Made by a program: the position numbers and the translations under genes. A model generated the notes under the pieces. The model searched no databases. It was not told the DNA's origin and was given only the letters and a program-made list of their open reading frames with translations. DNA of 64,000 bases from NCBI RefSeq assembly GCF_963668385.1, contig NZ_OY764327.1:5898724-5962723 (forward strand). The letters run 5' to 3'. Source of the DNA: an uncultured Carboxylicivirga sp. GTDB lineage: Bacteria; Bacteroidota; Bacteroidia; Bacteroidales; Marinilabiliaceae. Shown piece after piece: positions 1 through 19,308 of the stretch; the first letter of the stretch is position 1; each line of letters starts with the position of its first letter.

Positions 1-655
1 TAGTAACCGACATATTAGCATAATCAACACCCGAAATATTAGACCAGGTAAGTGGCAAATAGATGCACGCACTAAAAAGAAACATCCATTTCATAATGGT
101 AATGGAGTGATATTTTTTGATGATATTTTTAAAAAACACAAAGTATATAGCATAGCTAAACTGCGCCATAAAGCACAATAAAATTCCCTTTAATCCTAAT
201 TCGCCAAACGATTTACCCGACGAACTATTGAGGATAATAACAATGGCTCCGCTTGCCCCAATGGCAATACCAACCAGCTTTTTCCAGGTAACCGGTTCTT
301 TTAAATAAAAGGCCGAAATAACCATGGCAATAATAGGTAAAGTAGTAGTGACAATAGAAGCATTAATGGGCGAAGTATACGAAACACCAAACACAAATAC
401 TCCCTGATTAAGAATAATACCAAACAGAGCACCCAACACCAGCCATCGTAAATCTTTAAACGGAATGCGTTCTTTGGGAATAAACATCGAGGCAGTCCAA
501 AAAGCAATAGCTGCACCCGTTACCCGATAGGCAACGATCGTCCATGCATCAATATTACTGTTAACAACCACCGCCTTTACAAAAGGCGACATTAGACCCC
601 ATGCCATATTTGCAACTATCATTGCCATATGGCCTTTCACTTTATCTATTCTCAT
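1..655 (-). CDS. EamA/DMT-family transporter, 3' end outside window
   Basis: Reading from an ATG at 653-655 toward position 1, the frame stays open for 218 codons and leaves the window without a stop. The translation starts MRIDKVKGHMAMIVANMAWG and has several hydrophobic segments with the small-residue/Trp pattern typical of the first helices of EamA (drug/metabolite transporter) proteins, including an inner NQGVFVFGVSYTSPINAS stretch that matches the conserved end of the first EamA repeat. About 220 of an expected 290-300 residues are present. The family exports small metabolites across the inner membrane; the substrate cannot be told. The gene is separated from dps by about 140 bases with no clear terminator. 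Confidence 0.8.
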   Translation of the reverse strand, partial: MRIDKVKGHMAMIVANMAWGLMSPFVKAVVVNSNIDAWTIVAYRVTGAAIAFWTASMFIPKERIPFKDLRWLVLGALFGIILNQGVFVFGVSYTSPINASIVTTTLPIIAMVISAFYLKEPVTWKKLVGIAIGASGAIVIILNSSSGKSFGELGLKGILLCFMAQFSYAIYFVFFKNIIKKYHSITIMKWMFLFSACIYLPLTWSNISGVDYANMSVT

Positions 656-793
656 TTCGGATGCAAAAGTGAGAAAAGAAGCGATACTTTGTATCAACTT
701 GCCTTAATAATTAAAGTGCAAATCAAAAAAAGGTCCAACTTTTAAGCTGAACCCCACTAACTTTACTTAATCTTACACTAAACCGATAATTTG

Positions 794-1291
794 TTAGTTT
801 TTTGAATTATTTAACCACATGGTAAGCATCCAGTGTTCTTTCTCCAATGAACGAATCATAGAGTTCATCAAATCCAGTGTCGCCATATCACCGGCTTTTT
901 GAGCCGCCTCGGCAACATCCACCAATAATCCATCTAGTTTTTCAATATCACCCAAAACCTGTTGCGTCATTTGAATAGGTGTTAAATCGGTTCCGGTTTC
1001 TTTAATTTCGGCTACCTGCAAATACTCACCTAATGTACTCATGGGTGTTTTACCAAATACTCTGATGCGTTCGGCAACCTCATCAATATTAGTAACAGCA
1101 GCGGTATATAGCTCTTCAAACTTTTCGTGAAGGTCGAAGAAGTCGCCACCTTTAACATTCCAATGGTAGTTTCTTAATTTTTGATAGAAAATATGGTAGT
1201 TAGCCAATACAATGTTCATTGTTGATACCATTTCGGCAGTATCTAATCCTGTAAATCCTAATTTTCGGTATGTTTTTATTGTAGTTTCCAT
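794..1291 (-). CDS. dps: Dps-family ferritin-like DNA-protection protein
   Basis: A 165-residue protein of normal Dps length. It carries the intersubunit ferroxidase ligands in the usual order: His43 in NYHWNV, His55 and Glu59 in DLHEKFEE, and Asp70/Glu74 in the IDEVAER helix. The family forms 12-subunit shells that oxidise Fe(II) with peroxide, store iron and in many cases coat DNA during starvation or oxidative stress. It lies at the end of a stress-gene island on the same strand. The space before it holds a repeat element (1321-1548) that begins only 30 bases ahead of the start codon, so its promoter may have been altered or supplied by that element. Identification is secure. Confidence 0.95.
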   Translation of the reverse strand: METTIKTYRKLGFTGLDTAEMVSTMNIVLANYHIFYQKLRNYHWNVKGGDFFDLHEKFEELYTAAVTNIDEVAERIRVFGKTPMSTLGEYLQVAEIKETGTDLTPIQMTQQVLGDIEKLDGLLVDVAEAAQKAGDMATLDLMNSMIRSLEKEHWMLTMWLNNSKN

Positions 1292-1320
1292 GATATTATA
1301 TTTTTTAAAAATGATTAATT

Positions 1321-1548
1321 ATGCGAATCAACAGCTGACCCACTTTGGGAGTCCTTTATAATACGTTCATATTCCACGGGTTCCACCAGCGGCTATTCAT
1401 ATTAAATCCTGAAGGGATTTATAAATGTTTGAAGGACATTAAGAATAATAGCCTTGTGCGAAGCGCGGGGTGACTATTTGACTAATGATACAACTCCGAT
1501 AGTGGGTTGAACTATGATATAAAAACAATTTGAACTATTGATTCGCAT
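1321..1548. repeat. MITE/REP-like inverted-repeat element between usp and dps
   Basis: This element fills most of the 326-base gene-free gap 1292-1617. It is bounded by a perfect 11-bp inverted repeat, ATGCGAATCAA at 1321-1331 and its complement at 1538-1548. Further in, imperfect inverted copies of a GACCCACTTTGGGAGT-type sequence follow. Inside are small hairpins: CCACGGGT/ACCAGCGG (1374-1392, decayed) and AAATCC-5-GGATTT (1404-1420), and a locally GC-rich stretch (about 1453-1472). There is no ORF and no convincing target duplication. The hairpin-rich layout resembles non-coding repeats scattered through Bacteroidota genomes, but copy number cannot be assessed here. Confidence 0.55.
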
Positions 1549-1617
1549 TTATTATTTGATTGTATATTATTCGAAATTTATGGTCGCTATTGTGCCATAA
1601 CATTCTTTCACTTGAAT

Positions 1618-2454
1618 TTATTCGTAAAACATCAGAACAGGCTTGTCTGACTTACTTGATATTTCAATGGCCTGACTTTTATTAAACAGGTTCTCGAAAA
1701 AATCTTTCTTTTCGCGAAGCACAGCCACCAGATCGTAGCCATTTTGGGTGGCATAATTATTTATACCATCTGTAATATCTGATGCTTTAATGGTTCTTAC
1801 CACCAACTTGTTGTAGTTTACTTTATCAAGAATTTCTTTGCCGACATTAATGGTGTCAAATTTTTCGATTTCGTCGGCTGTGGCAATATGAAGCAGGGTT
1901 ACCTTTGCATTAAATACCTCTGCAATGGAAGTTAATTTCTGCAATTTAGGTATATCAACTTCCAGGAAGTTGGATGCATAAAGTATTTTCGTAAAAGGTT
2001 GATAATGATAGTCGCCTGGCAACCTTAAAATAGGACATTCTGCTACCTGCGAAAACTTATCAAAAAAGGTAATTAACGAAATATCCTGTCGATAATTATC
2101 ATCGGCCAGAACAATCATATAAGTATCTTGCTCTTTCGATTTTTGCTCAACCAAATGGTCAAGTGTTCCGGTTTGTACTTTTAAATTGATAAAAACATCG
2201 CGCGTTAAAGCTTTTAAGTTATCTATAACCTCTTTGGCTTTATTTTCCTGTGTCTCCAGGTATTGATAAAATTGGTTGGCTTCCTCCATGCTGGGAACCG
2301 GGTTCATTCCGGTGGGAATGCTCACCATACTCGGATCTGACACTAATATAAGCTCCAGATCTTTGTCTAATTTGTTACCTAACTTAACCAAGGCTTTGGT
2401 TGCTTCTTCGATGTTTTCGGTAGTTTGAATAAACTCTATTATCTTCTTTTTCAT
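1618..2454 (-). CDS. Universal stress protein, tandem-domain UspA type
   Basis: A 278-residue protein made of two degenerate UspA-like alpha/beta domains (about residues 1-140 and 150-278). The second begins with the typical strand FTKILYASNFLE. The ATP-binding G-2x-G-9x-G-S/T loop is not evident in either half, so nucleotide binding is doubtful. The open frame extends 17 codons further, but the start at MKKKIIEF (2452-2454) fits the family and leaves a leader. The long space upstream carries TGTGG/CCACA half-sites shared with neighbouring stress genes. Universal stress proteins support survival in starvation or energy stress by poorly defined mechanisms. Confidence 0.85.
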   Translation of the reverse strand: MKKKIIEFIQTTENIEEATKALVKLGNKLDKDLELILVSDPSMVSIPTGMNPVPSMEEANQFYQYLETQENKAKEVIDNLKALTRDVFINLKVQTGTLDHLVEQKSKEQDTYMIVLADDNYRQDISLITFFDKFSQVAECPILRLPGDYHYQPFTKILYASNFLEVDIPKLQKLTSIAEVFNAKVTLLHIATADEIEKFDTINVGKEILDKVNYNKLVVRTIKASDITDGINNYATQNGYDLVAVLREKKDFFENLFNKSQAIEISSKSDKPVLMFYE

Positions 2455-2614
2455 GATGTAAGTGTTTAATTTATTATTGTTTGCTATAAATAGTTCAAAT
2501 ACCATTCTACAAATACCAATAAATTATACATCTCACACACCACCTCTATATCCTACTTGTTTACTGCATGTTATAAACAGAAATATTTTTTAGTCCTTTT
2601 ACCAATTTGTAAAA

Positions 2615-2685
2615 GTGTGGTTAATTTTCAGCAATAATCGTAGAGATAAGTTGTTGAGTTTGTTCCACAGTTACTTATGTGTGGA
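2615..2685. promoter_or_regulatory. TGTGG/CCACA half-site cluster upstream of usp
   Basis: A lone GTGTGG sits at 2615-2620, and TTCCACA (2663-2669) faces TGTGGA (2680-2685), giving an everted pair. The cluster is 160-230 bases ahead of the usp start. The same half-sites recur in four other gaps of this island and are proposed as enhancer sites for the NtrC-type regulator at 7775-9160. No matching -24/-12 sequence was found between this cluster and usp, so this member is weaker than the others. Confidence 0.4.
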
Positions 2686-2688
2686 TAC

Positions 2689-2733
2689 AAAAAAGCAGAG
2701 CTCCTTCAATTATATAAAGAGATCTGCTTTTTT
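2689..2733 (-). terminator. Rho-independent terminator after the holin/YtxH cluster
   Basis: AAAAAAGCAGA (2689-2699) pairs with TCTGCTTTTTT (2723-2733), giving a stem with a T-run when read on the minus strand. It lies just past the stop of the gene at 2754, ending that three-gene unit. Confidence 0.75.
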
Positions 2734-2753
2734 ATAAACGGTTATTCTTTTAG

Positions 2754-2972
2754 TTAATTTGTGCTGTGGCGTTTCATCAATTTAATAAGGTATGATCTTA
2801 TCAGGTTCTGAAAGTACTCTTTAAGACTGTTAGCTGCCGAAACCTGTAGGTAAGTTTCAAATTCGTAGGCGGTATCTTTTAAAGCCAATTCGCTATACTT
2901 TAGTTGATATTGAAGATTTTGCTTGTAGTAAGCCAAATCATTAAAGGATTTTATTTTAGGTACTTTACTCAT
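2754..2972 (-). CDS. Small hypothetical protein in the holin/YtxH unit
   Basis: A 72-residue, helix-prone soluble protein beginning MSKVPKIKSFND, with no recognised domain. The frame opens nine codons earlier, but that would overlap the preceding gene; the ATG at 2970-2972 lies 7 bases after the preceding stop and is preferred. It is the last gene of a unit with a YtxH protein (3342) and a holin-fold protein (2980), followed directly by a terminator. The context suggests a partner of those two envelope/stress proteins, but no function can be assigned. Confidence 0.6.
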   Translation of the reverse strand: MSKVPKIKSFNDLAYYKQNLQYQLKYSELALKDTAYEFETYLQVSAANSLKEYFQNLIRSYLIKLMKRHSTN

Positions 2973-2979
2973 TACTTTA

Positions 2980-3327
2980 CTATTTATCATCGTCATCAAG
3001 TATTATAGACGCTAAGCCCCGTACTACCTGATCACCAATTATTTTATTTTTAAAAAGTAGTATTATAACAGCCAGTATTGCAAAAAACAACACCGAAATT
3101 AGTAAGCCTTGAACCATATTACCATACCAGAAACTAAATGCTAAAGCCAATAGTAATAAACAAAATAGCAGCGTAATAATAAGAGTAATGGATGTGATGA
3201 AATACGTGCCCACTTTACTTGATTTTTCGAGTAGGTTCACTTTGGTTAATTGAACCTTCACATCCATGTAATCTTTGACTGATTCGTTCAACTCTGAGAT
3301 GTTATCCTTTAATGATAATTTGTTCAT
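2980..3327 (-). CDS. Phage_holin_3_6-fold (DUF1469-like) membrane protein
   Basis: A 115-residue protein with a charged N-terminal helix (about 1-35), two adjacent transmembrane segments (about 40-65 and 70-92) separated by a short YGNMVQG turn, and a cytoplasmic tail ending in acidic residues. This is the layout of the Phage_holin_3_6 family, which despite its name is found mostly in ordinary chromosomes. There are no lysis or phage genes nearby. It is the middle gene of the YtxH - holin-fold - hypothetical unit, 14 bases after the YtxH stop. It probably acts in the inner membrane as part of an envelope-stress module. Confidence 0.8.
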   Translation of the reverse strand: MNKLSLKDNISELNESVKDYMDVKVQLTKVNLLEKSSKVGTYFITSITLIITLLFCLLLLALAFSFWYGNMVQGLLISVLFFAILAVIILLFKNKIIGDQVVRGLASIILDDDDK

Positions 3328-3341
3328 GTCCGGGGGTATTG

Positions 3342-3641
3342 TTAGGCTTCAACTTTATTTTTATCAACCTGATCTTTAATCTTTCCAATTTTCGATTTTA
3401 CTTCCGTTTCGGCCTCAGCATATTTGCCTTTCATGTCATCAACCATTTCTGTCATTTGCTCTTTTAAATCGTCCATTCGTTCGTTGATTTCACGTTGAGC
3501 ATCCGTTTTTATTTTTCTGGCTTTCTTTTTTACTCGCTTACGCGTTTTGTAACCTTTGTCGGGTGCAAATAAAATTCCTGTTATGGCACCTGCTGCTGCT
3601 CCGGCAATAAATCCTATTAATGTATTTGTTGTTTTAGACAT
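3342..3641 (-). CDS. YtxH domain-containing protein
   Basis: A 99-residue protein starting with one glycine/alanine-rich membrane segment, IGFIAGAAAGAITGILFAP, followed by the basic YtxH junction (DKGYKTRKRVKKKARK) and a long charged helical tail. That is the YtxH signature. Members are small membrane-anchored proteins induced by general stress; the biochemical role is unknown. It is the first gene of a three-gene unit. A sigma54-like -24/-12 sequence (3683-3698) and TGTGG half-sites (3741-3793) stand upstream, so stress-specific transcription of the unit is likely. Confidence 0.88.
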   Translation of the reverse strand: MSKTTNTLIGFIAGAAAGAITGILFAPDKGYKTRKRVKKKARKIKTDAQREINERMDDLKEQMTEMVDDMKGKYAEAETEVKSKIGKIKDQVDKNKVEA

Positions 3642-3682
3642 AACATATAAATTTTAGTTAAACAATTATTTATAAGTAGTAA

Positions 3683-3698
3683 TGAAAATACCTTGCCA
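3683..3698 (-). promoter_or_regulatory. Sigma54-like -24/-12 promoter of the YtxH unit
   Basis: On the minus strand the sequence is TGGCAAG-GTAT-TTTCA. Compared with the sigma54 consensus TGGCACG-N4-TTGCW, the -24 element has one mismatch, the spacing is exact, and the -12 element differs at one base (G to T). It is 42 bases ahead of the YtxH ATG. A closely similar sequence stands before csbD. Inferred from sequence only. Confidence 0.45.
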
Positions 3699-3740
3699 AA
3701 ACACAAATACTGGGTTTTGGCTACTTTTTAAGTTAAAAAC

Positions 3741-3793
3741 TGTGGCGCGTACTCCAAAGTTGTGGTGTAAAATACACAGTTTGTTTTTCCACA
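3741..3793. promoter_or_regulatory. TGTGG/CCACA enhancer-like sites upstream of the YtxH unit
   Basis: TGTGG occurs at 3741-3745 and 3761-3765 and CCACA at 3789-3793. A perfect 13-bp palindrome GTGTA-AAA-TACAC (3765-3777) overlaps the middle site. They lie 45-95 bases upstream of the sigma54-like promoter at 3683-3698, the usual enhancer distance for an NtrC-type activator. Confidence 0.45.
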
Positions 3794-3836
3794 TCACAAC
3801 CTCTACACAATTGGCATCATAAGATTAAAAAACAAA

Positions 3837-3862
3837 AAGCCATACACGATTTGGTATGGCTT
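3837..3862 (-). terminator. Terminator after mscS
   Basis: AAGCCATAC (3837-3845) pairs with GTATGGCTT (3854-3862) with an 8-base loop. On the minus strand the stem is followed by a T-rich run. It is 27 bases past the stop of the MscS gene. Confidence 0.75.
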
Positions 3863-3888
3863 CATTGGGGATGACCTAACAAATGGGT

Positions 3889-4794
3889 TTATTCTTTTTC
3901 GGTATTTACTTCTGAAAACACTTCACTTAACGATTTACCTCCCTTCATACCAAAATCTAATGTTCGTATTGGGAAGGTTATAGTAATATCGTTATGATCA
4001 TAGGCTTTTTTAATGTTTTTAATTCCTTGACTTTGTGCCCTCAAATAATCAGTTTCCCGGGCAAACTTTACCCAATACTGAATTACAAAGTTAATGGAGC
4101 TACTTCCGAATTCGGTATAGAAAAGCTCAACTGTAGTGCCAGGCTCGAGATAGCTTATTTTTCGGATTGCTTCTTTGGTCACTTCTTCTGCTTTTTCAAG
4201 ATCATCACCATAAGATATTCCAACTTCCAGATCAATTCTTCGATGACCATTAATGGTAAAATGGGTGTAATAATTCTCTACAATCAAACGGTTGGGAAAT
4301 ACCACATCCTGTCCCTGCATAGTTGTTATGGTAGTGGCGCGTATCCCTATTTCTTTAACTGACCCATATACATCGTTGTACTCAATAATATCGCCCACAT
4401 TAATAGGACTTTTAACAGCCATATAAATACCGGATAAAAAGTTAGATGCCACATCTTTAAATGCAAAACCAATAGCTAAACCGGCAATACCAATACCTGC
4501 CAGCAAAGAAGTAACTGTTTTATCAAGATTAAGCACATTTAATGCTACAAAAGCACCGGCAAATGATATTATCGAAAACACTATGGTTGATATTAAACTA
4601 TTGACAGAGTGGTTGGACGAAACTCTGAAAAGTGCCTTATTGAGAAATTTACGAACCCATTTAGCCACTATGTAAAATGCTACAACCACCAAAACAGCTA
4701 CTATTACATTGGGAAGCATGGTTATAAACGTTTCTATCCATCCTTGAATCTTGAGCAAAATCTTATCTGTAGCTTCACTTATTTTATCGAACAT
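3889..4794 (-). CDS. mscS: Small-conductance mechanosensitive channel (MscS family)
   Basis: A 301-residue protein of E. coli MscS length. It has an N-terminal amphipathic helix, three transmembrane segments (about 28-50, 62-88 and 92-125) and then the soluble beta and alpha/beta domains. The pore-lining third helix shows the Gly/Ala packing pattern, LLAGIGIAGLAIGFAFKD, followed by the NFLSGIYM bend. The channel opens under membrane tension to release solutes on osmotic downshock. It is a single-gene unit, flanked by hairpin terminators on both sides, within the stress island. No phospho-site or extra domain is seen. Confidence 0.93.
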   Translation of the reverse strand: MFDKISEATDKILLKIQGWIETFITMLPNVIVAVLVVVAFYIVAKWVRKFLNKALFRVSSNHSVNSLISTIVFSIISFAGAFVALNVLNLDKTVTSLLAGIGIAGLAIGFAFKDVASNFLSGIYMAVKSPINVGDIIEYNDVYGSVKEIGIRATTITTMQGQDVVFPNRLIVENYYTHFTINGHRRIDLEVGISYGDDLEKAEEVTKEAIRKISYLEPGTTVELFYTEFGSSSINFVIQYWVKFARETDYLRAQSQGIKNIKKAYDHNDITITFPIRTLDFGMKGGKSLSEVFSEVNTEKE

Positions 4795-4839
4795 TTTTAG
4801 TATGCTTTTATAATAATCAATAACGTAAGCTCAAAAAAC

Positions 4840-4872
4840 AAATGGATGCCGGTTCATCAACAGCATCCATTT
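4840..4872 (-). terminator. Terminator after the coiled-coil lipoprotein
   Basis: AAATGGATGC (4840-4849) pairs perfectly with GCATCCATTT (4863-4872), followed on the minus strand by a T-rich run. It closes the csbD - lipoprotein unit and separates it from mscS. Confidence 0.8.
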
Positions 4873-4922
4873 ATTTAATAGTTGGCTCCACAACCGTAAA
4901 AATACTTTATGATGATTGGCCA

Positions 4923-5381
4923 TTAAACATCGTTGTTAAAAAAATTTTTCACACTTTCGCCAAACTCATTAAAATCGTGCTTAATTTCTTTTTTTGCTTC
5001 GGCCCAGTTTTCTTTTCCATCTTCACCGGCTTCATTAATCTTTGCTTTCAGCTCTATGCTTTTATCTTTTAAATTGTCAATTGCTTCTTGAGTAGCATCA
5101 TCAATTTCTTCGCCTGTTTTTTCGGCATTATCTTCAAACTCTTCCAGTTTGTCATCAACATTATTAATCACAGTCTGAGCTTTATCTTTAAACTCTTCGC
5201 TGTTATCTTCAGCAGCCTCTTTAAACGATTCATTTAAATCTTTCAAATCTTGCTTTAATGCGGTTAAGCTTTTTTCAACTTCGGTTTTGTTGTTTTGCTT
5301 CTTAGCCTGATTACATGATGCAAACACTATAGTTGCTAATAAAATGGTAATAATGGGTAATATACTTAGTACTTTCTTCAT
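4923..5381 (-). CDS. Coiled-coil lipoprotein, hypothetical
   Basis: A 152-residue protein with a signal peptide and a lipobox ending FASC (Cys23), so it should be lipidated and membrane anchored. The mature part is almost entirely charged, low-complexity alpha helix rich in Glu, Lys, Asp and Asn with no aromatic core until the end, suggesting an extended coiled coil like those of YtxH or apolipoprotein-type helices. It follows csbD by 70 bases without a terminator in between and is probably cotranscribed with it. A structural role in the periplasm under stress is plausible, but no function is known. Confidence 0.75.
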   Translation of the reverse strand: MKKVLSILPIITILLATIVFASCNQAKKQNNKTEVEKSLTALKQDLKDLNESFKEAAEDNSEEFKDKAQTVINNVDDKLEEFEDNAEKTGEEIDDATQEAIDNLKDKSIELKAKINEAGEDGKENWAEAKKEIKHDFNEFGESVKNFFNNDV

Positions 5382-5451
5382 AGTTTTATTTTTTAAATTT
5401 GTAATTGATTATTAATTATCGAAGCTCGGAAAAGAGCAATTAAAAAACGGG

Positions 5452-5643
5452 TTAGTTTTTCATGTCGTTTAGTTCCTTAACAATTTCCTCTTTGGCTTTT
5501 CCGGTTTTTTCCTGAATCAAACCAACTAATTGATCTTCTACTCCATCGGAATAAACCATCTCATCATCGAAGATTTCACCATATTTTTGTTTTACTTTTC
5601 CTGTTACTTCTTTCCATTGTCCTTTTAATTCTAACTTATTCAT
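5452..5643 (-). CDS. CsbD-family stress protein
   Basis: A 63-residue protein starting MNKLELKGQWKEVTGKVK, the typical CsbD opening, with the later KTGKAKEEI helix. The frame has another ATG two codons earlier; the second was chosen because it matches the family start. CsbD proteins are small hydrophilic proteins strongly induced by general stress in many bacteria, with unknown biochemical action. A sigma54-like sequence (5691-5706) and TGTGG/CCACA sites (5816-5847) lie upstream, matching the arrangement before the YtxH unit. Confidence 0.88.
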   Translation of the reverse strand: MNKLELKGQWKEVTGKVKQKYGEIFDDEMVYSDGVEDQLVGLIQEKTGKAKEEIVKELNDMKN

Positions 5644-5690
5644 CGTCATTTCTTTTTTAGATTAATAATTAAATTGTTTGTCAGAAGTAA

Positions 5691-5706
5691 TGAGAATAAC
5701 GTGCCA
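5691..5706 (-). promoter_or_regulatory. Sigma54-like -24/-12 promoter of csbD
   Basis: The minus strand reads TGGCACG-TTAT-TCTCA. The -24 element matches the consensus exactly and the spacing is exact; the -12 element TCTCA keeps the central C but not the G. It lies about 50 bases ahead of the csbD start and aligns with the sequence before the YtxH gene (shared pattern TGGCAmG-N4-TnTCA, then ATTACT). Confidence 0.45.
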
Positions 5707-5815
5707 AAACAATAATTACACATCCATATATACACTCCTACATACTATTAATCAGCTAAATAAAAAGAATAACAAATTTATAAAATCTATTTTTTGAACT
5801 TTAAGGAAAGTAAAT

Positions 5816-5847
5816 TGTGGGTGTGACTTTCCACAAAAAAGTGTGGA
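5816..5847. promoter_or_regulatory. TGTGG/CCACA enhancer-like sites upstream of csbD
   Basis: TGTGG (5816-5820) and CCACA (5831-5835) form an inverted pair with a 10-base spacer, and a second GTGTGG follows at 5841-5846. They stand 110-140 bases upstream of the sigma54-like promoter at 5691-5706 and directly after the stop of the receiver gene. Confidence 0.45.
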
Positions 5848-5860
5848 GAAATATGAACAC

Positions 5861-6265
5861 TTATGCTTTTGAAATAAGTTCAGCCACATAATTATCCGGC
5901 AAAGGTTTCTCTTGATAACCTACTACAAAAGGAAACGACATTGCTTTTTGCTTATCTTTTTCGCGGGTAGAACTGGTAACGATGATAATTTTTGTAGATG
6001 AATGCCATGGATAAAACTGCTGCTTATATTGTTCCATAAACTCAAATCCATCCATTTCGGGCATGTTTAAATCCAGAAGTATATAATCGGGGCTTGGTTT
6101 ATTCTTGTGTTTTAAATCGGATATTAAAGACAGTGCTTCTTCTGCGCTGGTAGCAGTTGTAAAATATTTGTTCAATCCGTCCCATTCAACCATCATTTTA
6201 TTGAGTTCAATCAGAAATGGATCATCATCTATTAACAATACTTTATTGTAATTCATCTCAATCAT
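5861..6265 (-). CDS. Single-domain response regulator (CheY-like)
   Basis: A 134-residue stand-alone receiver domain. The acidic pocket is DDD at residues 13-15, the phospho-acceptor is Asp65 in LLDLNMP, the Thr/Ser switch is in VTSS, and the conserved Lys is in QEKPL. There is no output domain, so it should act by protein contact or as a phosphate shuttle. Its start overlaps the end of the kinase gene at 6258, so the two are translationally coupled; a second ATG at 6254-6256, after the kinase stop, is an equally likely start. It is probably the direct partner of that kinase. Confidence 0.9.
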   Translation of the reverse strand: MIEMNYNKVLLIDDDPFLIELNKMMVEWDGLNKYFTTATSAEEALSLISDLKHKNKPSPDYILLDLNMPEMDGFEFMEQYKQQFYPWHSSTKIIIVTSSTREKDKQKAMSFPFVVGYQEKPLPDNYVAELISKA

Positions 6266-7472
6266 ACTCTTTTAGAAACAAGTGTATTTTTGTGCCTTTA
6301 TTGAGTTCACTTTCTATTTCTACGTATCCACCATTTCGTTTCACCATGGTTTCAACAATATGCAAGCCCAACCCCATTCCTTTGGAATTTTGACTCAGCT
6401 TACCAAAGGGACGAAATAGTCTTTTTCTGTCTTTCTGCAAATCAATTCCAGGTCCATTATCTTCAATGGTAAGTTGAATGGTATCTTCATCTAACCTATG
6501 AGCTTCGATATTAATTATTGCTGAATGATTATAACAATACTCTATTGAATTGGATAATACATTGGTGATTATCACTTTGAGAAAAGCTTTTACATGGCTA
6601 AAAATCAATTTGTCAGAAATAGTTATATCTACCTCAATACGTTTTTCTTGCAGTTGTGCCTCAAGTTCTGTTAATACCTCATCTACCACCGCATACAAAT
6701 TAATATTATAAGATACCGGCTCATCTGCTTTTTGAATATCGATTACCCGTATCAACCCCATAAGTGTTTCATCCAAGCGATTTACATTACCGGATATGTT
6801 GGACATGAGTTTAACTTTATCCAATTCAGGGGCTTTATCAATTGCCTGTGCCAACATCTTTAAATTAGAAACCGGAGCTCGCAGATCATGCGCTACTGCA
6901 TGAACAAAATGTTCGAGATAATGATTCATGGCCAGCAGCTCGGCATTGCGTTTGTCCAGTTGTTTGGTTTGCAACACCTGTTCATGAACATCGGTGCCTG
7001 TACCAATCCAATTCACAACGTTATTGTCATCATCCTTCACTGGAATTAATGAAATTAAATGCCAACGATAATCTTGCTGATGTTGTATTCGAACTCTTAT
7101 TTCGGAAGCAATTCCTTTTTCTTTAATACGATCCCAAAAATTCTCCATTTCTGTGTGATCATCACGACAAATTACCTTCCACCACAATTTATTTAAATCA
7201 TCCTGATAAGCTGTGGCTGTATATTCATACCAGCGTTTATTAAAAAAGTCGATATGACCCGATTCAGAAGCAGTCCAGGCTATTTGAGGTAACACATCAA
7301 TTATGCGCTGCGCACGCTTGCTTTCATCCGATACAGATCTAAGGTAATCCAGCTCCTTGCCCAGACTTTGGGTTTTTCTGATAACTGTATTTTTATCCTT
7401 AAATTCCATTACAAAAACTTCGGATTCATTTTTATGCGTTAGCTTATCTTTATTTCTTCTCTCCATATCCAT
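6258..7472 (-). CDS. PAS-domain sensor histidine kinase, soluble
   Basis: A roughly 404-residue kinase with no transmembrane segment. It has a PAS_3-type domain (about 57-165, ending WIGTGTDVHEQ), a HisKA dimerisation helix with the phospho-His in HAVAHDLRAP (about residue 195), and a HATPase domain with the N-box NVLSNSIEY, DNGPGID and GMGLGLHI motifs. The layout resembles bacteriophytochrome-like kinases without the photosensor, so the signal is cytoplasmic. The longest frame begins at a TTG (7481); ATGs at 7470-7472 and 7464-7466 are better. It forms an operon with the receiver at 5861. Upstream lie a sigma54-like promoter (7566-7581) and a perfect TGTGGA palindrome (7725-7742). Confidence 0.9.
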   Translation of the reverse strand: MDMERRNKDKLTHKNESEVFVMEFKDKNTVIRKTQSLGKELDYLRSVSDESKRAQRIIDVLPQIAWTASESGHIDFFNKRWYEYTATAYQDDLNKLWWKVICRDDHTEMENFWDRIKEKGIASEIRVRIQHQQDYRWHLISLIPVKDDDNNVVNWIGTGTDVHEQVLQTKQLDKRNAELLAMNHYLEHFVHAVAHDLRAPVSNLKMLAQAIDKAPELDKVKLMSNISGNVNRLDETLMGLIRVIDIQKADEPVSYNINLYAVVDEVLTELEAQLQEKRIEVDITISDKLIFSHVKAFLKVIITNVLSNSIEYCYNHSAIINIEAHRLDEDTIQLTIEDNGPGIDLQKDRKRLFRPFGKLSQNSKGMGLGLHIVETMVKRNGGYVEIESELNKGTKIHLFLKEYD

Positions 7473-7565
7473 CTTATACAATTCTTATTTCTGCCCAATT
7501 ACTCGCAGCAGATTTAAACAAATAAACTTGTGTTGGTTTATTTACAATTGCTATAAAAAAAAGAA

Positions 7566-7581
7566 TTCAAGCACTATGCCA
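7566..7581 (-). promoter_or_regulatory. Sigma54-like -24/-12 promoter of the kinase-receiver operon
   Basis: The minus strand reads TGGCATA-GTGC-TTGAA. The invariant TGGCA is present, the spacing is exact, and TTGAA differs from TTGCA by one base. It lies about 95 bases ahead of the kinase start, with a perfect palindromic site about 145 bases further upstream. Confidence 0.45.
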
Positions 7582-7724
7582 TAGCACCATCAATACGCAA
7601 AGCCTCATCTTTTGTACCCAACATATACATCCACTAAATACATGTATAACAATCCAATATCGAAATTTACTTCATGGGTATTTTTTATAAGTTTTGACTA
7701 TTAATAAAATCTCGATCAACTACC

Positions 7725-7742
7725 TGTGGAAATACATCCACA
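7725..7742. promoter_or_regulatory. Perfect TGTGGA-N6-TCCACA palindrome
   Basis: TGTGGA (7725-7730) and TCCACA (7737-7742) form a perfect inverted repeat of 18 bases. This is the cleanest copy of the site found in this island. It lies between the sigma54 regulator gene (ending at 7775) and the sigma54-like promoter of the kinase operon. A dimeric Fis-type helix-turn-helix would bind such a site. Confidence 0.55.
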
Positions 7743-7774
7743 ACTATAAACTATCGATACAAAGGCTAAAAAGT

Positions 7775-9160
7775 TCACATTCTTTTCAGGGCTTTATAAT
7801 CAATATCTAATTGCTTCATTTTATTATATAGTGTTTTTCTGTCGATATTTAATTTTCGTGCAGCCTCGGATTTATTAAAATTAACTTCTTCAAGCGTATT
7901 AATAATCACTTCCTTCTCGAATTGATTGGCAGCACCTTTCAAGTCCGGAGCTTTATTATCGTCTTCCGATACATTCTCCAATACCTGACTAACCACATCA
8001 TATTCTTCCTTTTCTTTATGATTTTTGATTTCATCGGGCAAACAATCGAGTGTTATATTCGAAGCCGTTGATAACAATACTGATCGTTTGATTACATTCC
8101 TCAACTCACGAAGATTACCATGCCAAGAGTAATTTTGCATCGCAATAATTACATCCGGATCCATACCTTCCACTTCCTTGTACAAATCACCATTGGCCTG
8201 TTGAATAAAATGACGAGCAAAAACAAGAATATCCTCTTTTCTCTCGCGCAAAGCTGGCAATGAAATTTTAAATTCGTTCAAGCGATGGTACAGGTCTTCA
8301 CGAAAATTATTATTCTGTATATCCACTTCCAATTCATCATTGGTGGCAGCAATAATTCTAACATCCACATTAACGGATTTTGTACTACCTAATTTAGTAA
8401 TAACCCTTTCCTGAATGGCTCGTAGTAATTTCACCTGAAGATCATATGCAAGGTTCCCCACCTCATCTAAAAACAAAGTACCCCCGTTGGCCTGTTCAAA
8501 CACCCCTATTTTGTTATTTATGGCACCGGTAAATGCTCCTTTTAAATGCCCAAACAGCTCGCTGTTGGCCAAATCCTTTGGTATGGCTCCACAATCAACT
8601 GCAACAAATGGCTTATCGTTTCTTTTACTATTTTGATGGATAAACCGGGCGATATACTCTTTACCCGATCCGGTTTCGCCTTGTATTAGTACCGACATAT
8701 TGGTTGGCGCAACCACGTCGCATAAACGAATAATATCTTTTATTTCACTACTCTCTCCGATAATGAATTCCTTATTATCAGAGGCAGTATTTTTTTTATT
8801 TTCCTTTTTACTAACCTGCTTCACCAAACTCAAGAGCTCCTCTTGCTGCAATGGTTTGGTTACATAATCATACGCACCTAATTTCATTAGCTTAACAGCC
8901 ATGCGGACATCGGCATAAGCAGTAATGATGATTACTTTAGTCTCGGAATTTTTAGATTTGATGTTTTTCAACATTTCCAGCCCGTCGCTATCAGGCAAGC
9001 GGAAATCGCAAACTACTATATCGTATTTCTTTTTCTTGAGCAGAAGATTGGCTCCTTCGGCAGTATATTCGGCATCTACCTCATAACCATGATTTGTAAG
9101 ATAGGTTTCAAGCAGATTGCACATAAAAGTATCATCGTCAACGACTAATATTTTATTCAT
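7775..9160 (-). CDS. NtrC-family sigma54-dependent response regulator
   Basis: A 461-residue protein with the full NtrC layout: receiver (1-120, phospho-acceptor Asp52 in CDFRLPDSDG), AAA+ domain (about 132-370) with Walker A GETGSGKE (161-168), the sigma54-contacting GAFTGA loop (208-213) and Walker B GTLFLDEV (227-234), and a C-terminal Fis-type helix-turn-helix (about 420-458, NKSEAARKLNIDRKTLY). All residues for ATP-driven open-complex formation are present. It lies 30 bases downstream of the hybrid kinase gene on the same strand. I infer that it binds the TGTGG/CCACA sites in this island and activates the sigma54-like promoters, which would include its neighbours. Confidence 0.93.
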   Translation of the reverse strand: MNKILVVDDDTFMCNLLETYLTNHGYEVDAEYTAEGANLLLKKKKYDIVVCDFRLPDSDGLEMLKNIKSKNSETKVIIITAYADVRMAVKLMKLGAYDYVTKPLQQEELLSLVKQVSKKENKKNTASDNKEFIIGESSEIKDIIRLCDVVAPTNMSVLIQGETGSGKEYIARFIHQNSKRNDKPFVAVDCGAIPKDLANSELFGHLKGAFTGAINNKIGVFEQANGGTLFLDEVGNLAYDLQVKLLRAIQERVITKLGSTKSVNVDVRIIAATNDELEVDIQNNNFREDLYHRLNEFKISLPALRERKEDILVFARHFIQQANGDLYKEVEGMDPDVIIAMQNYSWHGNLRELRNVIKRSVLLSTASNITLDCLPDEIKNHKEKEEYDVVSQVLENVSEDDNKAPDLKGAANQFEKEVIINTLEEVNFNKSEAARKLNIDRKTLYNKMKQLDIDYKALKRM

Positions 9161-9190
9161 ATTGTATAAATGAGGTGTGTGGTGTTTGTA

Positions 9191-11290
9191 TTAGGCTGTT
9201 ATCTTTTCTTTTTCTATGGCTTCCAATATTGCTTCGATCTGATCAATCAAAACATGTAGCTTATCTGGTATTCCATCGAATTCTTTGTTAATCACCGATT
9301 TTTCTATGGATCGCAATACATCAGAAGCTTCATCAAGTTTAAAGTACCTGAAAGATGAAACCATCCGATGGGCCGTTTCGCGCAACAAATCCCAATTACT
9401 CTGTTTCAGCCCATGTTTTAGTTCTTCTAATCCTTTCTGCGTATTATCAATAAATGATTGCAGCATTTTATTAAACATCATTTGATTTCCACGGGTAGCT
9501 TTTTGCAAATCGGTAAAATCAAAAATAATGGTAGGTGTTTTTTCTGTTTCCATAATGGCTTGTTTAGGCATCTTCTTATTCGTATCAATTTGTATACCTA
9601 AAACATTACATACCTTATTAAAAAGCTCCTCTTCGGAGTATGGCTTGATTAAATAATCGTCCATGCCAAACTGCAAATATTCATTAATATCACTTTTGAC
9701 AATATTGGCAGTTAAGGCAACTATTTTAGTTTGTTTATTTGGATTTGGTTCCGTTCTAATCTGATGGGTTGTCTGCATTCCACTTAACTTTGGCATATGA
9801 ATATCCATAAGGATAATGTCATATGCCTTTTGATTGGCGAGGTTATATGCCTCTTCACCATTTTGGGCCAAATCAAAGTCTACATCCCAATTATTAAAAA
9901 TCGTTTGAGCTAATTCCCTGTTATACTGATCGTCATCGGCCAACAATATGTTTTTTCCTTTCAGATGATGGGCATCCACAACAAATACCTGATCTTCTTT
10001 AATAATATCTGTTTCGGATCCTTTTTTGTATGGAATAACAATACTAAAATGACTTCCTTTCTCCGGTTCACTTTTTAGTTTGATTTTCCCTTTCTGTAAC
10101 TCAATCAATTTCTTACTAATGGTCAATCCCAAACCTGTTCCTCCATGCTTTTCTTTAATCATATTCTCCGATTGCGAAAACTCATCAAAGATGATGGCTT
10201 GATCTTTTACAGGAATTCCAATACCGGTGTCTTTCACATCAATACGTAAACGGACTTTATCATACTCCTCTTTTTTTACCGAACATGAAAACCGAACAGA
10301 ACCGGCATCTGTGAATTTTACAGCGTTGCTAACCAAATTAATAAGTACTTGTTTCAATCGAAAAGGATCACCAACTAAAACCGGTGAGATGTCATCATCA
10401 ACCACATACATTAGCTCGATACCTTTTCGTTCAGCTTTTAACCTGAAAAACTGATAAACATCCTCAAAAACCTTTCGAACATCAAACGGAACTTCATCGA
10501 TAAACACTTTTCCCATTCCTATCTTCAATAAAATAAGAATCTCATTGACCAGAGAAAGCAATATATCGGATGATTCATTGACCAAATCGTTGAATTTCCT
10601 TTGCTCCGGTGTTAATTGTGTTTTGGCTAATTGCTCAGAGAAACCAATTATGGCATTGAGCGGAGTCCTGATCTCATGACTCATATTGGCTAAAAAGTTA
10701 GTTTTAGATCGGGCAGTGTTTTCTGCCTCGATCTTAGCTTTACGAAGTTTTTGTTGTGCTTTTTTTAATTTGGTGATATTGTGGCCAATTAAAATACCAT
10801 ACTCAATTTCACCATTATCATCGTAAATTGGCTGAGTAAGAATCTTATAAGCCTTACTTTTATTTTTAAATTCTGTTTCTACCTTATTACCAATGAGAGT
10901 ACTATCCAGTAGGTGTTTAAAACTATCCTGCAGGTTCTTATCCGAAATATCCAATATAGTTTTCCCTAAAAAATCCTGCTTTGAGTAGCCATACTTAGTT
11001 TTTTCCTGACCGCCTGTAAGAACAAACCTTTGTTTCTTATCGAACAGATAAACATCCATATCAGGCAAGTTATCGAGCATAGCCGCATATTGCTCTTTCA
11101 ACCTTTTATTTTCAGCCCTAAGCTTATTGTGTTCTTTTTCGAGTTGGTTATTACAATCTTCACATTCCTTCAAAGCCTTTTGAATTGATAATAACTCATC
11201 TGACATTGCCATGTTACATTTCGATTCAACCAATAGCTTTTCTAACTTTTGATTAATTGCATCAAATTTCTTCATTTGGCTGATCTCCAT
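9191..11290 (-). CDS. Hybrid sensor kinase: PAS, HisKA, HATPase, receiver, HPt
   Basis: A 699-residue soluble multi-domain kinase. It has an N-terminal coiled coil (about 5-70), PAS (about 72-180), HisKA with His205 in MSHEIRTPLN, HATPase with NLVSNAVKF, DTGIGIP and GGTGLGL motifs (to about 420), a receiver with Asp496 in LMDIHMP, and a C-terminal HPt domain with His641 in AHRMVSS. The His-Asp-His chain lets it pass phosphate to a separate regulator, most simply the NtrC-type protein encoded 30 bases downstream. No membrane segment is seen, so it senses a cytoplasmic cue. A TGTGG-N10-CCACA site lies about 70 bases ahead of the start, suggesting feedback. Confidence 0.92.
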   Translation of the reverse strand: MEISQMKKFDAINQKLEKLLVESKCNMAMSDELLSIQKALKECEDCNNQLEKEHNKLRAENKRLKEQYAAMLDNLPDMDVYLFDKKQRFVLTGGQEKTKYGYSKQDFLGKTILDISDKNLQDSFKHLLDSTLIGNKVETEFKNKSKAYKILTQPIYDDNGEIEYGILIGHNITKLKKAQQKLRKAKIEAENTARSKTNFLANMSHEIRTPLNAIIGFSEQLAKTQLTPEQRKFNDLVNESSDILLSLVNEILILLKIGMGKVFIDEVPFDVRKVFEDVYQFFRLKAERKGIELMYVVDDDISPVLVGDPFRLKQVLINLVSNAVKFTDAGSVRFSCSVKKEEYDKVRLRIDVKDTGIGIPVKDQAIIFDEFSQSENMIKEKHGGTGLGLTISKKLIELQKGKIKLKSEPEKGSHFSIVIPYKKGSETDIIKEDQVFVVDAHHLKGKNILLADDDQYNRELAQTIFNNWDVDFDLAQNGEEAYNLANQKAYDIILMDIHMPKLSGMQTTHQIRTEPNPNKQTKIVALTANIVKSDINEYLQFGMDDYLIKPYSEEELFNKVCNVLGIQIDTNKKMPKQAIMETEKTPTIIFDFTDLQKATRGNQMMFNKMLQSFIDNTQKGLEELKHGLKQSNWDLLRETAHRMVSSFRYFKLDEASDVLRSIEKSVINKEFDGIPDKLHVLIDQIEAILEAIEKEKITA

Positions 11291-11358
11291 AAATTCGTTT
11301 TAATACAAGTTGGTCACTTTTTGCTTTTGTAGAAAAAATGATACAATTTTTTTAGAAG

Positions 11359-11378
11359 TGTGGAAAAAATTCCCCACA
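11359..11378. promoter_or_regulatory. TGTGG-N10-CCACA site upstream of the hybrid kinase
   Basis: TGTGG (11359-11363) and CCACA (11374-11378) form an inverted pair with an A/T-rich 10-base centre, the same geometry as the pair at 5816-5835. It is about 70 bases ahead of the hybrid-kinase ATG. No sigma54-like sequence was found between them. Confidence 0.4.
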
Positions 11379-11413
11379 TCAAAATCCATTCCCAAATTTA
11401 ATTCTCACTCCAT

Positions 11414-12445
11414 TTAAATATAGCCCAATACCTTTGCATGATTAAAGGCTTCTTTGGTATGCTTTATTTGTATCAGATGTGTATGTGTATCAAACAAACT
11501 ATCTACTTCATTAGTTTTACCCCCCCACAAAGATTTAATTTGCCTGATATACACGGTTTCTATTCTACCCGGAAATTCCTTGGTCAATCTACCATAAATA
11601 ATTGGATCTTCCTGCCCGTTATCTCCCAGTAAAACAAATTTCTGGTAAGGATAAAAAGTCAGTAAGAATCGTATTTTATTATATTTTAAATCATGATGTT
11701 TCTTTCCGGATAACCACAATTTAATAATCCCTTCCGAGTACTTTTTAAGCAACAATGTTCCTTCTGGAATCTGGTTAAATTTAAAAAAATCATTCAATAA
11801 ATCGTATAAGTTCCATTCACTGCTGGAAACATAAAAGAATGGATGATCTGCATTATTAGACCTTCCTGACTTTAATTGTTGGTAAAACCTTGGTATATCC
11901 GGGAAAGGCAAACGACTTTCTGCATTCTTAAAAAGAATCAAATATAGTTTCCGAAATAAATGCGTTGAATGCGAAATAAGCACAGTATCATCAATATCTG
12001 AAATAAATATCCGCTCTTCGTCATCATTAATAATTTGTATTTGACCTGTAACCTTAACAGACGTATTAGGAATAATAGCTTTTACAGGAATCCATCTATC
12101 AGACTGTACTTTATGAAAACAAGGTAGTTTTAATTGAACAGAAAACGATCCGGATCCATCTGTTATCACCTTAGTTTGCTCACTTAGCAAATCAATTTTC
12201 ACCTCTTGATTAGCTACCGTCTTACGTGTAAAACGCTTAATCATAGCGCGCATATTTTCCCATTTACTATTATTTGAGAAAGATTGAACATTCTTTCCTG
12301 CGATCACCATTCCACTCACGAAAACTGTAGTGCTATTACCATAGCCTTTATACAAAACAATTTCCATATCATCTTTTAAGTCATCGTTAGACATTAAAAC
12401 ATCCTTGATTCTGAACATCCAATTCCGAAGAAAAATATTTTGCAT
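11414..12445 (-). CDS. APP1-like phosphatidate phosphatase domain protein (DUF2183)
   Basis: A roughly 343-residue protein. The N-terminal half is beta-rich. The C-terminal half is the APP1 catalytic domain with the haloacid-dehalogenase-type motif FISDIDDTV (about residues 148-156), a conserved FFYVSSSEWNLYDLL segment and the later LLGDNGQEDP. In yeast App1 this domain removes phosphate from phosphatidic acid; bacterial members are presumed lipid phosphatases. The longest frame starts at a GTG (12460); the ATG at 12443-12445 is preferred. It is divergent from a diacylglycerol-kinase-family gene, whose product would run the opposite reaction, which suggests joint control of phosphatidate and diacylglycerol. 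Confidence 0.82.
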   Translation of the reverse strand: MQNIFLRNWMFRIKDVLMSNDDLKDDMEIVLYKGYGNSTTVFVSGMVIAGKNVQSFSNNSKWENMRAMIKRFTRKTVANQEVKIDLLSEQTKVITDGSGSFSVQLKLPCFHKVQSDRWIPVKAIIPNTSVKVTGQIQIINDDEERIFISDIDDTVLISHSTHLFRKLYLILFKNAESRLPFPDIPRFYQQLKSGRSNNADHPFFYVSSSEWNLYDLLNDFFKFNQIPEGTLLLKKYSEGIIKLWLSGKKHHDLKYNKIRFLLTFYPYQKFVLLGDNGQEDPIIYGRLTKEFPGRIETVYIRQIKSLWGGKTNEVDSLFDTHTHLIQIKHTKEAFNHAKVLGYI

Positions 12446-12522
12446 GAATTTTTTATACACCGCTTCGCTTTTTTAGCACCAATTTTGATAATAGTATAAT
12501 CAAGTACTAAGCCATAAAACAT

Positions 12523-13404
12523 ATGAAGAAGAAAAAACTATTGTTTGTTATCAATCCACATTCTGGAAGTTCTGATTATTCCAATATGGATGATTTAATC
12601 ATCAGAGTTTGCCAACCAATGAATGTTGATTTGCAAATACTGCACACAACAGGCAAAAACGATTGTACCACGATTGGCAATAAAATAAAGGAATACAAAC
12701 CAGACACTGTAATAACTGCAGGCGGAGATGGAACGGTTAACCAGGTAGCATCCTTGCTTATTAATAGTAAAATAAAACTAGGAATTCTGCCCAAAGGTTC
12801 GGCTAACGGATTAGCCTATAATCTGAATATAGGTGACGATTTTGAGGAAGAGATTCGTAAAATAATAACGGGTAAAGTTCATCGTATGGATTCGCTACTG
12901 ATTAATAACAAGCATTACTGTTTTCACCTTAGTGATATAGGTATAAATGCTAGATTGATAAAACGATTTGAGGAAGACGATACCCGCGGCTTAATGGGTT
13001 ACGCCAAAGAACTATTGAATGAATTAAAGGATGGTAAAAAGGTATTTAAAACCATTATTGAAACCAAGGAAAAGAAGTATCGACTAAAAGCCGAAATGAT
13101 ACTATTGGCCAATGCCAAAAGTTTTGGAACTGGCGCCATCATTAATCCAAAGGGTGAAATTGATGATGGTTTATTCGAAATAATAGTATTAAAGCCTTAT
13201 CCATGGTGGAGCATTCTAAGCCTTTTCACTAAAATGTTTACCGGTAAAATCAATCATTTAAAATATATTAAAACCATTCGTACCACAAGTGCCATTATCA
13301 GATTAAATAGTCCACAAGTATTGCAATCGGATGGAGAGATTCTTGGCGAACCGGAAGAAATTACCATCAAAATTATTCCTAATTCGTTAAGCATTGTATA
13401 CTGA
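12523..13404 (+). CDS. Diacylglycerol kinase-family lipid kinase (YegS/BmrU type)
   Basis: A 293-residue protein with the DAGK catalytic fold. It opens with a VINPHSGSS nucleotide-site loop, has the hallmark GGDGTVNQVAS (about 66-76), then LPKGSANGLAYNL, and ends with the beta-sandwich domain including SDGEILGEP. Length and motifs match the YegS/BmrU/DgkB group, which phosphorylates diacylglycerol or related lipids with ATP at the inner membrane. It is divergent from the APP1-like phosphatase (77 bases between starts). Confidence 0.9.
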   Translation: MKKKKLLFVINPHSGSSDYSNMDDLIIRVCQPMNVDLQILHTTGKNDCTTIGNKIKEYKPDTVITAGGDGTVNQVASLLINSKIKLGILPKGSANGLAYNLNIGDDFEEEIRKIITGKVHRMDSLLINNKHYCFHLSDIGINARLIKRFEEDDTRGLMGYAKELLNELKDGKKVFKTIIETKEKKYRLKAEMILLANAKSFGTGAIINPKGEIDDGLFEIIVLKPYPWWSILSLFTKMFTGKINHLKYIKTIRTTSAIIRLNSPQVLQSDGEILGEPEEITIKIIPNSLSIVY

Positions 13405-13491
13405 GTTAATCAACAGAAGTAACTCTCCAAACACAGGCTTCAGTCATCCCTCTTCTAACTATTTTGCTATCTTCGCCGTCAAATTTGAAGG

Positions 13492-14535: not shown

Positions 14536-14551
14536 AAGATAATATTCTTAA

Positions 14552-17181: not shown

Positions 17182-17252
17182 GATGCAAAAGTAATAAATG
17201 CCACTTAATAGTTAAATAGGGTGATGGTTTATTCGTCTTATTAGAAAGATAC

Positions 17253-17284
17253 AAAAAAAGGCTTCTCAAATGAGAAGCCCTTTT
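17253..17284 (-). terminator. Terminator after the peroxiredoxin gene
   Basis: GGCTTCTCA pairs with TGAGAAGCC around a two-base centre (17260-17279), with A-runs and T-runs on both flanks. It ends the peroxiredoxin gene on the minus strand. Confidence 0.85.
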
Positions 17285-17303
17285 ATATACATCGTCGGAA
17301 TAA

Positions 17304-17936
17304 TTATTTATTACCTAAGTAATCAGCAATACCTTCTTGTGTAGCTGATAATCCTTTGTCGCCTTTGTGCCAGTTAGCAGGACAAACCTCTCCGTTTTCT
17401 TCGAAAAACTGAAGTGCATCAACCATACGAATAACCTCATCAACACTACGACCTAATGGCATATCGTTTACTACCTGATGGCGTACTACACCTTCTTTAT
17501 CAATTAAGAACAACCCACGGAAAGCTTGTGGAGTACCTTTAAATACTACCTGACCATCGTCGTTAAAATCATATTCTCCAGCTAAAACATCGTAGTTTTC
17601 AGAGATAGTCATGCTGCTATCAGCAACCAAAGGATATTTAACACCCTTGATACCACCTTCTTTAGGCTCAGTTTGTAACCATTTCCAGTGAGAGAATTCT
17701 GAATCAACAGAAACACCTACTAACTGAACATCGCGACTTTCGAACTCAGCCAATTTTTCTTGAAATGCGATAATCTCAGTAGGACACACAAAAGTAAAGT
17801 CGGCAGGATAGAAATAAAGAATTACATATTTCTTTCCTAAGAATTGATCCAATGAATAGTTTTCAACTATTTCACCACCGTTAACAACAGCGCTTGCACT
17901 AAATGATGGAGCTTTCTTTCCAACTAATACAGACAT
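17304..17936 (-). CDS. Typical 2-Cys peroxiredoxin (AhpC/Prx1 group)
   Basis: A 210-residue thiol peroxidase. The peroxidatic Cys lies in PADFTFVCPTE (about Cys51), and the resolving Cys in GEVCPANW (about Cys170), followed by the C-terminal tail of the Prx1/AhpC group. It reduces hydrogen peroxide and organic peroxides in the cytoplasm. The usual partner reductase AhpF is not adjacent, so a thioredoxin system may serve it. It is a single gene with its own terminator. Confidence 0.95.
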   Translation of the reverse strand: MSVLVGKKAPSFSASAVVNGGEIVENYSLDQFLGKKYVILYFYPADFTFVCPTEIIAFQEKLAEFESRDVQLVGVSVDSEFSHWKWLQTEPKEGGIKGVKYPLVADSSMTISENYDVLAGEYDFNDDGQVVFKGTPQAFRGLFLIDKEGVVRHQVVNDMPLGRSVDEVIRMVDALQFFEENGEVCPANWHKGDKGLSATQEGIADYLGNK

Positions 17937-19296: not shown

Positions 19297-19308
19297 TCTA
19301 TTTTGTTG

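Follow-up and report, generated by a model that had tools for sequence, protein, structure and literature searches.

In the genome of an uncultured Carboxylicivirga sp. (genome code G000), stress-protection genes adjoin a candidate sensor-regulator pair in an island of about 8.8 kb. The stretch of 64,000 nucleotides that was analysed, here called the window, covers positions 5,898,724-5,962,723 of one 6.27-Mb contig, and all coordinates below are counted from its first letter. The order on the minus strand is hybrid kinase, NtrC-type regulator, second kinase with lone receiver, CsbD, lipoprotein-like protein, MscS, YtxH, holin-like protein, small protein, universal stress protein (USP) and Dps. 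Several of the gaps between these genes contain palindromes and sequences resembling sigma54 promoters, and we consider it likely from the sequence comparisons described below that the island is a local sigma54 regulon under the hybrid kinase-NtrC pair. The genes are as follows.

9191-11290, minus strand: hybrid histidine kinase with PAS, HisKA, HATPase, receiver and Hpt domains (Pfam, translation)
7775-9160, minus strand: NtrC-type response regulator with receiver, AAA+ domain carrying GAFTGA and Fis-type helix-turn-helix (HTH) (Pfam, translation, tree); candidate master regulator
6258-7472, minus strand: second PAS histidine kinase (HK; Pfam), likely start 7472, listed open reading frame (ORF) from a TTG at 7481; putative target
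5861-6265, minus strand: single-domain response regulator (RR; Pfam), overlapping the HK gene
5452-5649, minus strand: CsbD-like stress protein (Pfam)
4923-5381, minus strand: small lipoprotein-like protein (YtxH and apolipoprotein matches under the Pfam cut-off; relatives)
3889-4794, minus strand: MscS mechanosensitive channel (Pfam)
3342-3641, minus strand: YtxH-like protein (Pfam)
2980-3327, minus strand: holin-X-like membrane protein (match just under the Pfam cut-off)
2754-2999, minus strand: small protein without a Pfam match
1618-2454, minus strand: universal stress protein, usp (Pfam), likely start 2454 (278 aa, as in C. linearis), listed ORF from 2505
794-1291, minus strand: Dps-like ferritin (Pfam)

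The hybrid kinase gene is the upstream neighbour of the NtrC gene, with 30 bp between them. A preliminary description of this DNA had credited the regulator with GAFTGA and a Fis-type HTH, and both are borne out: the protein matches PF00158 (the AAA+ sigma54-interaction domain; E 4e-69), PF00072 (receiver) and PF02954 (Fis-type HTH), and GAFTGA is read in the translation. Pfam matches likewise uphold the stress-protein set named there, USP included, those of the holin-like and lipoprotein-like proteins being under the cut-off. The genome has one match to PF04552, that is, one rpoN.

Palindromes and promoter-like elements in the island

The preliminary description placed TGTGG/CCACA half-sites in five gaps and TGGCA-type -24 sequences in three. 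All are present at those positions, and the observation of clustered palindromes together with -24-like sequences is confirmed. Single TGTGG half-sites were rejected as a signal, as they are not enriched in the window (82 found, 90.6 expected). The paired form TGTGG-N6-10-CCACA occurs three times in the window (at 5816, 7725 and 11359) against 0.10 expected, a count reached in none of 100 shuffles. With the spacing set to N8-10, it occurs at nine places in the 6.27 Mb, three of them in the island and all three intergenic, while five of the six outside lie inside genes and one is intergenic. This concentration in the island has a hypergeometric P of 2e-7, in a test chosen after the data had been seen; genome-wide, the reversed pattern occurs at eight places against nine, so there is no global excess. 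The sole other intergenic place (L014, G000:C1:1273484-1273502) lies 67 bp upstream of a gene that by eye resembles one for an aquaporin, no family search having been made.

Comparison narrows the motif to the inverted repeat TGTDGA-N6-TCHACA. The half-site spacing of N6-10 given earlier is corrected to N6 by a scan of spacings 0-12, and N8-10 was dropped as a general rule in its favour. Taking the best match per gap with up to two mismatches, the predicted sites and promoters are these.

2652-2669, minus strand: putative enhancer site of usp, TGTGGA-N6-TCAACA, no mismatches
3761-3778, minus strand: putative enhancer site of YtxH, TGTGTA-N6-ACCACA, two mismatches and weak alone; conserved in three genomes (AAACTGTGTA)
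3741-3758: second site in the YtxH gap, two mismatches and weak alone
5830-5859, minus strand: putative CsbD enhancer region, with a one-mismatch site at 5842-5859 and an outward-facing TCCACA-N6-TGTGGA at 5830-5847
7725-7742, minus strand: putative enhancer site of HK-RR, TGTGGA-N6-TCCACA, perfect; present in three genomes with a diverged spacer
11359-11378, minus strand: putative autoregulatory site ahead of the genes for the hybrid kinase and NtrC, N6 motif at 11359-11376 with one mismatch
3683-3698, minus strand: sigma54-like promoter of YtxH, TGGCAAGGTATTTTCA; TTTGGCAAGGT identical in three genomes
5691-5706, minus strand: sigma54-like promoter of CsbD, TGGCACGTTATTCTCA (pattern scan, alignment, CsbD upstreams)
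7566-7581, minus strand: sigma54-like promoter of HK-RR, TGGCATAGTGCTTGAA; 16 of 16 positions identical in three genomes

The usp gap thus has a site, as had been claimed, but the half-sites paired there earlier are not the ones that form it. At two mismatches or fewer, no site is found in the gaps before MscS, the lipoprotein and dps. The sites lie about 70-155 bp upstream of the -24/-12-like elements. Those of YtxH and CsbD are alike over 23 bp (TTTTGGCANGNTATTNTCATTAC), a pattern that was drawn from these two and has two matches against a chance mean of 0.02. The canonical TTGGCAYN5TTGCW is rare, occurring at five, seven and one places in this genome and the two relatives G009 and G050, introduced below (reversed control: two, two and one). 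The -24/-12 pattern was rejected as a stand-alone signal, its count in the window being close to expectation; the support for these elements is their conservation.

A scan of genome contigs yielded two orthologues; four partial matches, at 32-33% identity, were set aside. The orthologous islands belong to Carboxylicivirga linearis (G009, same genus; NZ_JAGUCO010000007.1) and Plebeiobacterium sediminum (G050, same family; NZ_JAPDPJ010000001.1). Gene order is maintained in both, with regulators 84% and 75-76% identical, respectively; in the P. sediminum island the small protein, holin-like and APP1 genes are unmatched. Alignment of the orthologous gaps, a check that the preliminary description had proposed, reveals patches of identity within diverged sequence: most sites and -24/-12-like elements are retained in position in the two relatives, and their flanks have diverged. 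At the HK site the three genomes have TGTGGATGTATTTCCACA, TGTGGATTCTTCTCCACA and TGTAGAAATCACTCCACA. The longest stretches identical in all three are TGGCATAGTGCTTGAA, preceding HK, and TTTGGCAAGGT, preceding YtxH, and the distance of TTTGGCAAGGT from the likely YtxH start does not vary among them; in P. sediminum the HK promoter falls inside an over-long ORF call and is identical to the other two. The CsbD upstream retains TTGGCANNNTNTTNTC in the three genomes. Over the whole of G000 this sequence occurs at 10 places against seven for its control, and seven of the eight outside the island are inside genes; the counts are 13 against one in C. linearis and 17 against two in P. sediminum, places inside and outside those islands being counted together.

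A full-genome scan for the motif had also been proposed. The exact TGTDGA-N6-TCHACA occurs at eight places in G000 (control, none), two in the island, five inside genes and one in another intergenic region. With almost no further exact intergenic site, the regulon in this genome looks local, as far as exact motifs tell.

The regulator clade in other Bacteroidales

A regulator search of 393 genomes drawn from the order gave 34 at E <=1e-140, own genome included, and a search at class level (395 genomes, E <=1e-150) gave our own genome alone. The surroundings of the regulator were compared for 20 of 34 family-level matches (own excluded) and for 20 of 32 further order-level matching genomes. In a tree of 45 regulators, one clade of 20 from 11 families (support 98/92) comprises 18 regulators with an upstream hybrid kinase, assigned by BLAST match (in L144 genes intervene), together with L150 and L153. 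L059, a 5-kb fragment, is outside the tree and the counts, and L072 is in the tree and outside the sister set. Seven paralogous loci of the own genome were tried for the tree, of which L003 and L007 were excluded because GAFTGA was not found in them by pattern; four more strong paralogues were not included.

The palindrome recurs around these regulators. Its form TGTRGA-N6-TCYACA, with at most one mismatch, gave 36 matches in 27 loci (seven of them sister-clade), and 32 are intergenic, intergenic bases making up 12%. Among 149 permuted-arm controls the mean was 4.4 matches and 0.74 intergenic, the maximum 26 and 21, and none equalled 36 and 32. The motif had been derived from the three islands and from CsbD upstreams, one of which belongs to G657; 21 of the 32 intergenic matches fall outside those three islands. 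The 20 clade loci have 35 matches, 31 intergenic, with at least one intergenic match in 12 loci, against seven matches and five intergenic in the 19 sister-clade loci. When spacings 0-12 were scanned in inverted, outward and direct arrangement, only the inverted N6 exceeded six intergenic matches.

Several hybrid kinases of other loci likewise have a site a short way upstream, in many cases in a region that also precedes a divergent usp. Neighbours in other loci include USP, Dps-like ferritin, Hsp20, OsmC, dodecin, DJ-1, Fe/Mn superoxide dismutase, EncFtn, encapsulin, DUF2934 and PRC-barrel proteins, as well as a formate/nitrite transporter, a short-chain dehydrogenase and a baeRF protein. The stress-protein genes are present by Pfam, the named ones being picked by hand rather than by blind enrichment and many neighbours being unnamed. 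EncFtn lies near the regulator in L145, L147 and L151, L145 also having an encapsulin shell and Fe/Mn superoxide dismutase; L149 has encapsulin.

Promoter-like elements were sought in the same loci. Among 241 clade upstream regions, a sigma54 score of at least 10 was reached by 29 on the sense strand, nine on the opposite strand and two in reversed sequence. CsbD upstreams were collected from 50 of 52 matches over the family cut-off (13 below it were left out) and from four island relatives, and the resulting 54 were divided by an ad hoc sequence rule into type A (28) and type B (26). TGGYAYR occurs within 160 bp of CsbD in 16 of 28 type A (controls 0, 1 and 2) and in one of 26 type B (controls 1, 1 and 0); it is directional, with 16 sense and no reverse-complement occurrences in the type-A upstreams, and the -12 half before CsbD is often ATTYTC. 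It precedes CsbD at 14 of 16 loci of clade-positive genomes against three of 38 others (P 2e-8) or, counted per genome, in 12 of 14 against three of 37 (P 2e-7), relatedness being ignored in both; minus the four islands added as known, the clade-positive figure is 10 of 12 loci. Two of the three other loci that have the element (G605, G498) are in the family of the clade-positive genome G768. Clade membership was taken from retrieved regulators only, and G814, whose regulator match was not retrieved, was counted as without. Finally, TGGYAYR is found in 13 of 40 upstream regions with a palindromic site (four of 40 in each of two controls) and in 24 of 241 without (P 0.0005), so the coupling of site and promoter is clear yet incomplete. 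Before CsbD in L056 and L057 and before dodecin in L151, sigma54-like promoters have TTTTGC one base nearer the -24 (GG-N9-GC).

The proposed regulon, its rivals and its setting

The circuit that we propose would work as follows. The hybrid kinase (9191-11290) would sense a cue, probably a stress, and phosphorylate the adjoining NtrC-type regulator. The regulator would bind TGTDGA-N6-TCHACA about 70-155 bp upstream of the -24/-12-like elements and activate sigma54 RNA polymerase at three promoters, predicted to serve HK-RR, CsbD(-lipoprotein-MscS) and YtxH(-holin-small protein). The usp(-dps) genes would probably be a fourth target, and HK-RR, a second kinase with a lone receiver, may provide feedback. 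The regulator's own operon has the site at 11359-11378 and no sigma54 promoter was found there, which suggests autoregulation by another route. That the regulator at 7775 controls its neighbours, as first suggested in the preliminary description, is supported by the concentration of sites in the island, the conservation of their positions, the conserved -24/-12-like elements and the recurrence in the clade.

Several observations weigh against this reading. Matches to the -24/-12 consensus are not in excess in the window (33 found, 30.0 expected, at two mismatches or fewer). Two weaknesses admitted at the outset persist: the -12 elements are imperfect, the consensus GC (GG-N10-GC) being replaced by TC in YtxH and CsbD and by GA in HK, which is why we term these elements sigma54-like only, and the usp and hybrid kinase gaps have sites without a clear -24/-12. 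The hybrid kinase site is retained in C. linearis and was not seen in P. sediminum. Across whole genomes the excess of the perfect motif is modest (31 against 14 for the control in 17 clade-positive genomes; 13 against nine in 17 others), and C. linearis has seven exact places against five, three of them in its island. Sister loci also have some sense-strand sigma54 excess (16 sense, 11 opposite and one reversed at a score of at least 10 in 209 upstream regions), TGGYAYR is missing from 27 of the 40 site-bearing upstream regions, and the Fisher tests ignore relatedness. Before CsbD in L055, L056 and L057, a different conserved dyad, GTGAGTA-N6-TACACAC, stands ahead of a TTTGGCACA-type element. 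The recognition helix of these three regulators is NRKTLYNK, where the other aligned regulators, L072 apart, have DRKTLY; the specificity has possibly changed.

How far do alternative explanations account for these data? It is unlikely, though the likeliest of the alternatives, that sigma54 controls the island through a different NtrC-type protein at the sites, or through several such proteins. Of the 18 matches to the sigma54-activator domain in the genome, 12 are strong, and sister-clade regulators largely share the recognition helix (DRKTLYNK) in near-identical form, so another enhancer-binding protein could bind; the sister-clade loci L061 and L071 also have TGTGGA-type palindromes about 0.4-0.65 kb upstream of the regulator. 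Against this stand the abundance of intergenic sites in clade loci compared with sister loci and the fact that the sites flank the gene of the island's own NtrC regulator. The poor -12 half, and the sites in the hybrid kinase and usp gaps that lack a clear -24/-12, would suit an ordinary repressor or activator at a housekeeping or extracytoplasmic function (ECF) sigma promoter, with the TGGCA elements belonging to that factor or another sigma. We consider this improbable, as TGGYAYR is directional before CsbD, lies at -24/-12-like distances before a conserved T-rich -12 sequence and accompanies a GAFTGA regulator. That common descent or base composition accounts for the likeness, with no regulatory role behind it, is hardly credible: the -24/-12 pattern and single half-sites are at chance in the window, but the arms and the N6 spacing persist while the spacers diverge, and the permuted-arm, reversed, spacing and sister-clade controls all oppose it.

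The proposed local sigma54 regulon resembles those of the NtrC, ZraSR and AtoSC type in having a receiver-AAA+(GAFTGA)-Fis HTH protein beside a kinase, dyads about 70-155 bp upstream of the -24 and neighbouring targets. It differs in its hybrid kinase with Hpt, its general-stress targets, a -12 mostly without GC and the TGTDGA-N6-TCHACA site. CsbD, YtxH, Dps, USP, OsmC and superoxide dismutase are also types of target in the general stress regulons of SigB in Bacillus, EcfG-PhyR in Alphaproteobacteria and RpoS, but the island would be under sigma54 and an enhancer-binding protein, with no dedicated stress sigma, and the regulon looks small and local here. In the DosR dormancy regulon of mycobacteria, USPs, Hsp20 and ferritin-type proteins are likewise under a two-component system; DosR belongs to the NarL type and acts at ordinary sigma promoters, unlike the sigma54 route suggested here.

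To our knowledge, the co-ordination of general stress proteins in Bacteroidales is poorly understood; a candidate regulator, together with an exact binding motif and a list of targets, makes it a question for the bench. An ATP-dependent sigma54 switch for stress proteins, if true, would be unlike the sigma-swap logic of SigB, EcfG and RpoS. The inverted repeat is met again beside related regulators in further families of Bacteroidales. A wider proposal, tentative and on balance somewhat doubtful, is that in many Bacteroidales the general stress response depends on sigma54 and a single dedicated hybrid kinase-NtrC pair, which would use an enhancer code of its own (TGTDGA-N6-TCHACA) and an altered -12, where other phyla have dedicated stress sigma factors. 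In a study predicting sigma54 regulons across phyla (PMC12316311), the parts consulted report sigma54-type control of chaperone and protease genes in Bacteroidota and of UspA-type genes in Planctomycetia, with no mention of a dedicated regulator, enhancer or island like the present one; CsbD does not occur in its main text. A literature search, most subscription papers being beyond its reach, found no description of this regulon.

Rfam gave no match in window positions 1-20000. A sigma70-type promoter scan found 34 against 51.1 expected from shuffles, that is, fewer, and a terminator scan was at chance (six found, 6.5 expected). At 2690-2740, after the YtxH-holin-small protein genes, a hairpin and T-run not listed by that scan look terminator-like by eye, and a similar hairpin is seen in the aligned relatives. 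Between dps and usp, at 1321-1550, lies an element of about 230 bp resembling a miniature inverted-repeat transposable element (MITE), with inverted ends ATGCGAATCAA and TTGATTCGCAT; no further copy was found within the window or the retrieved loci that were searched. In the two relatives the dps-usp gap is just 50 and 67 bp.

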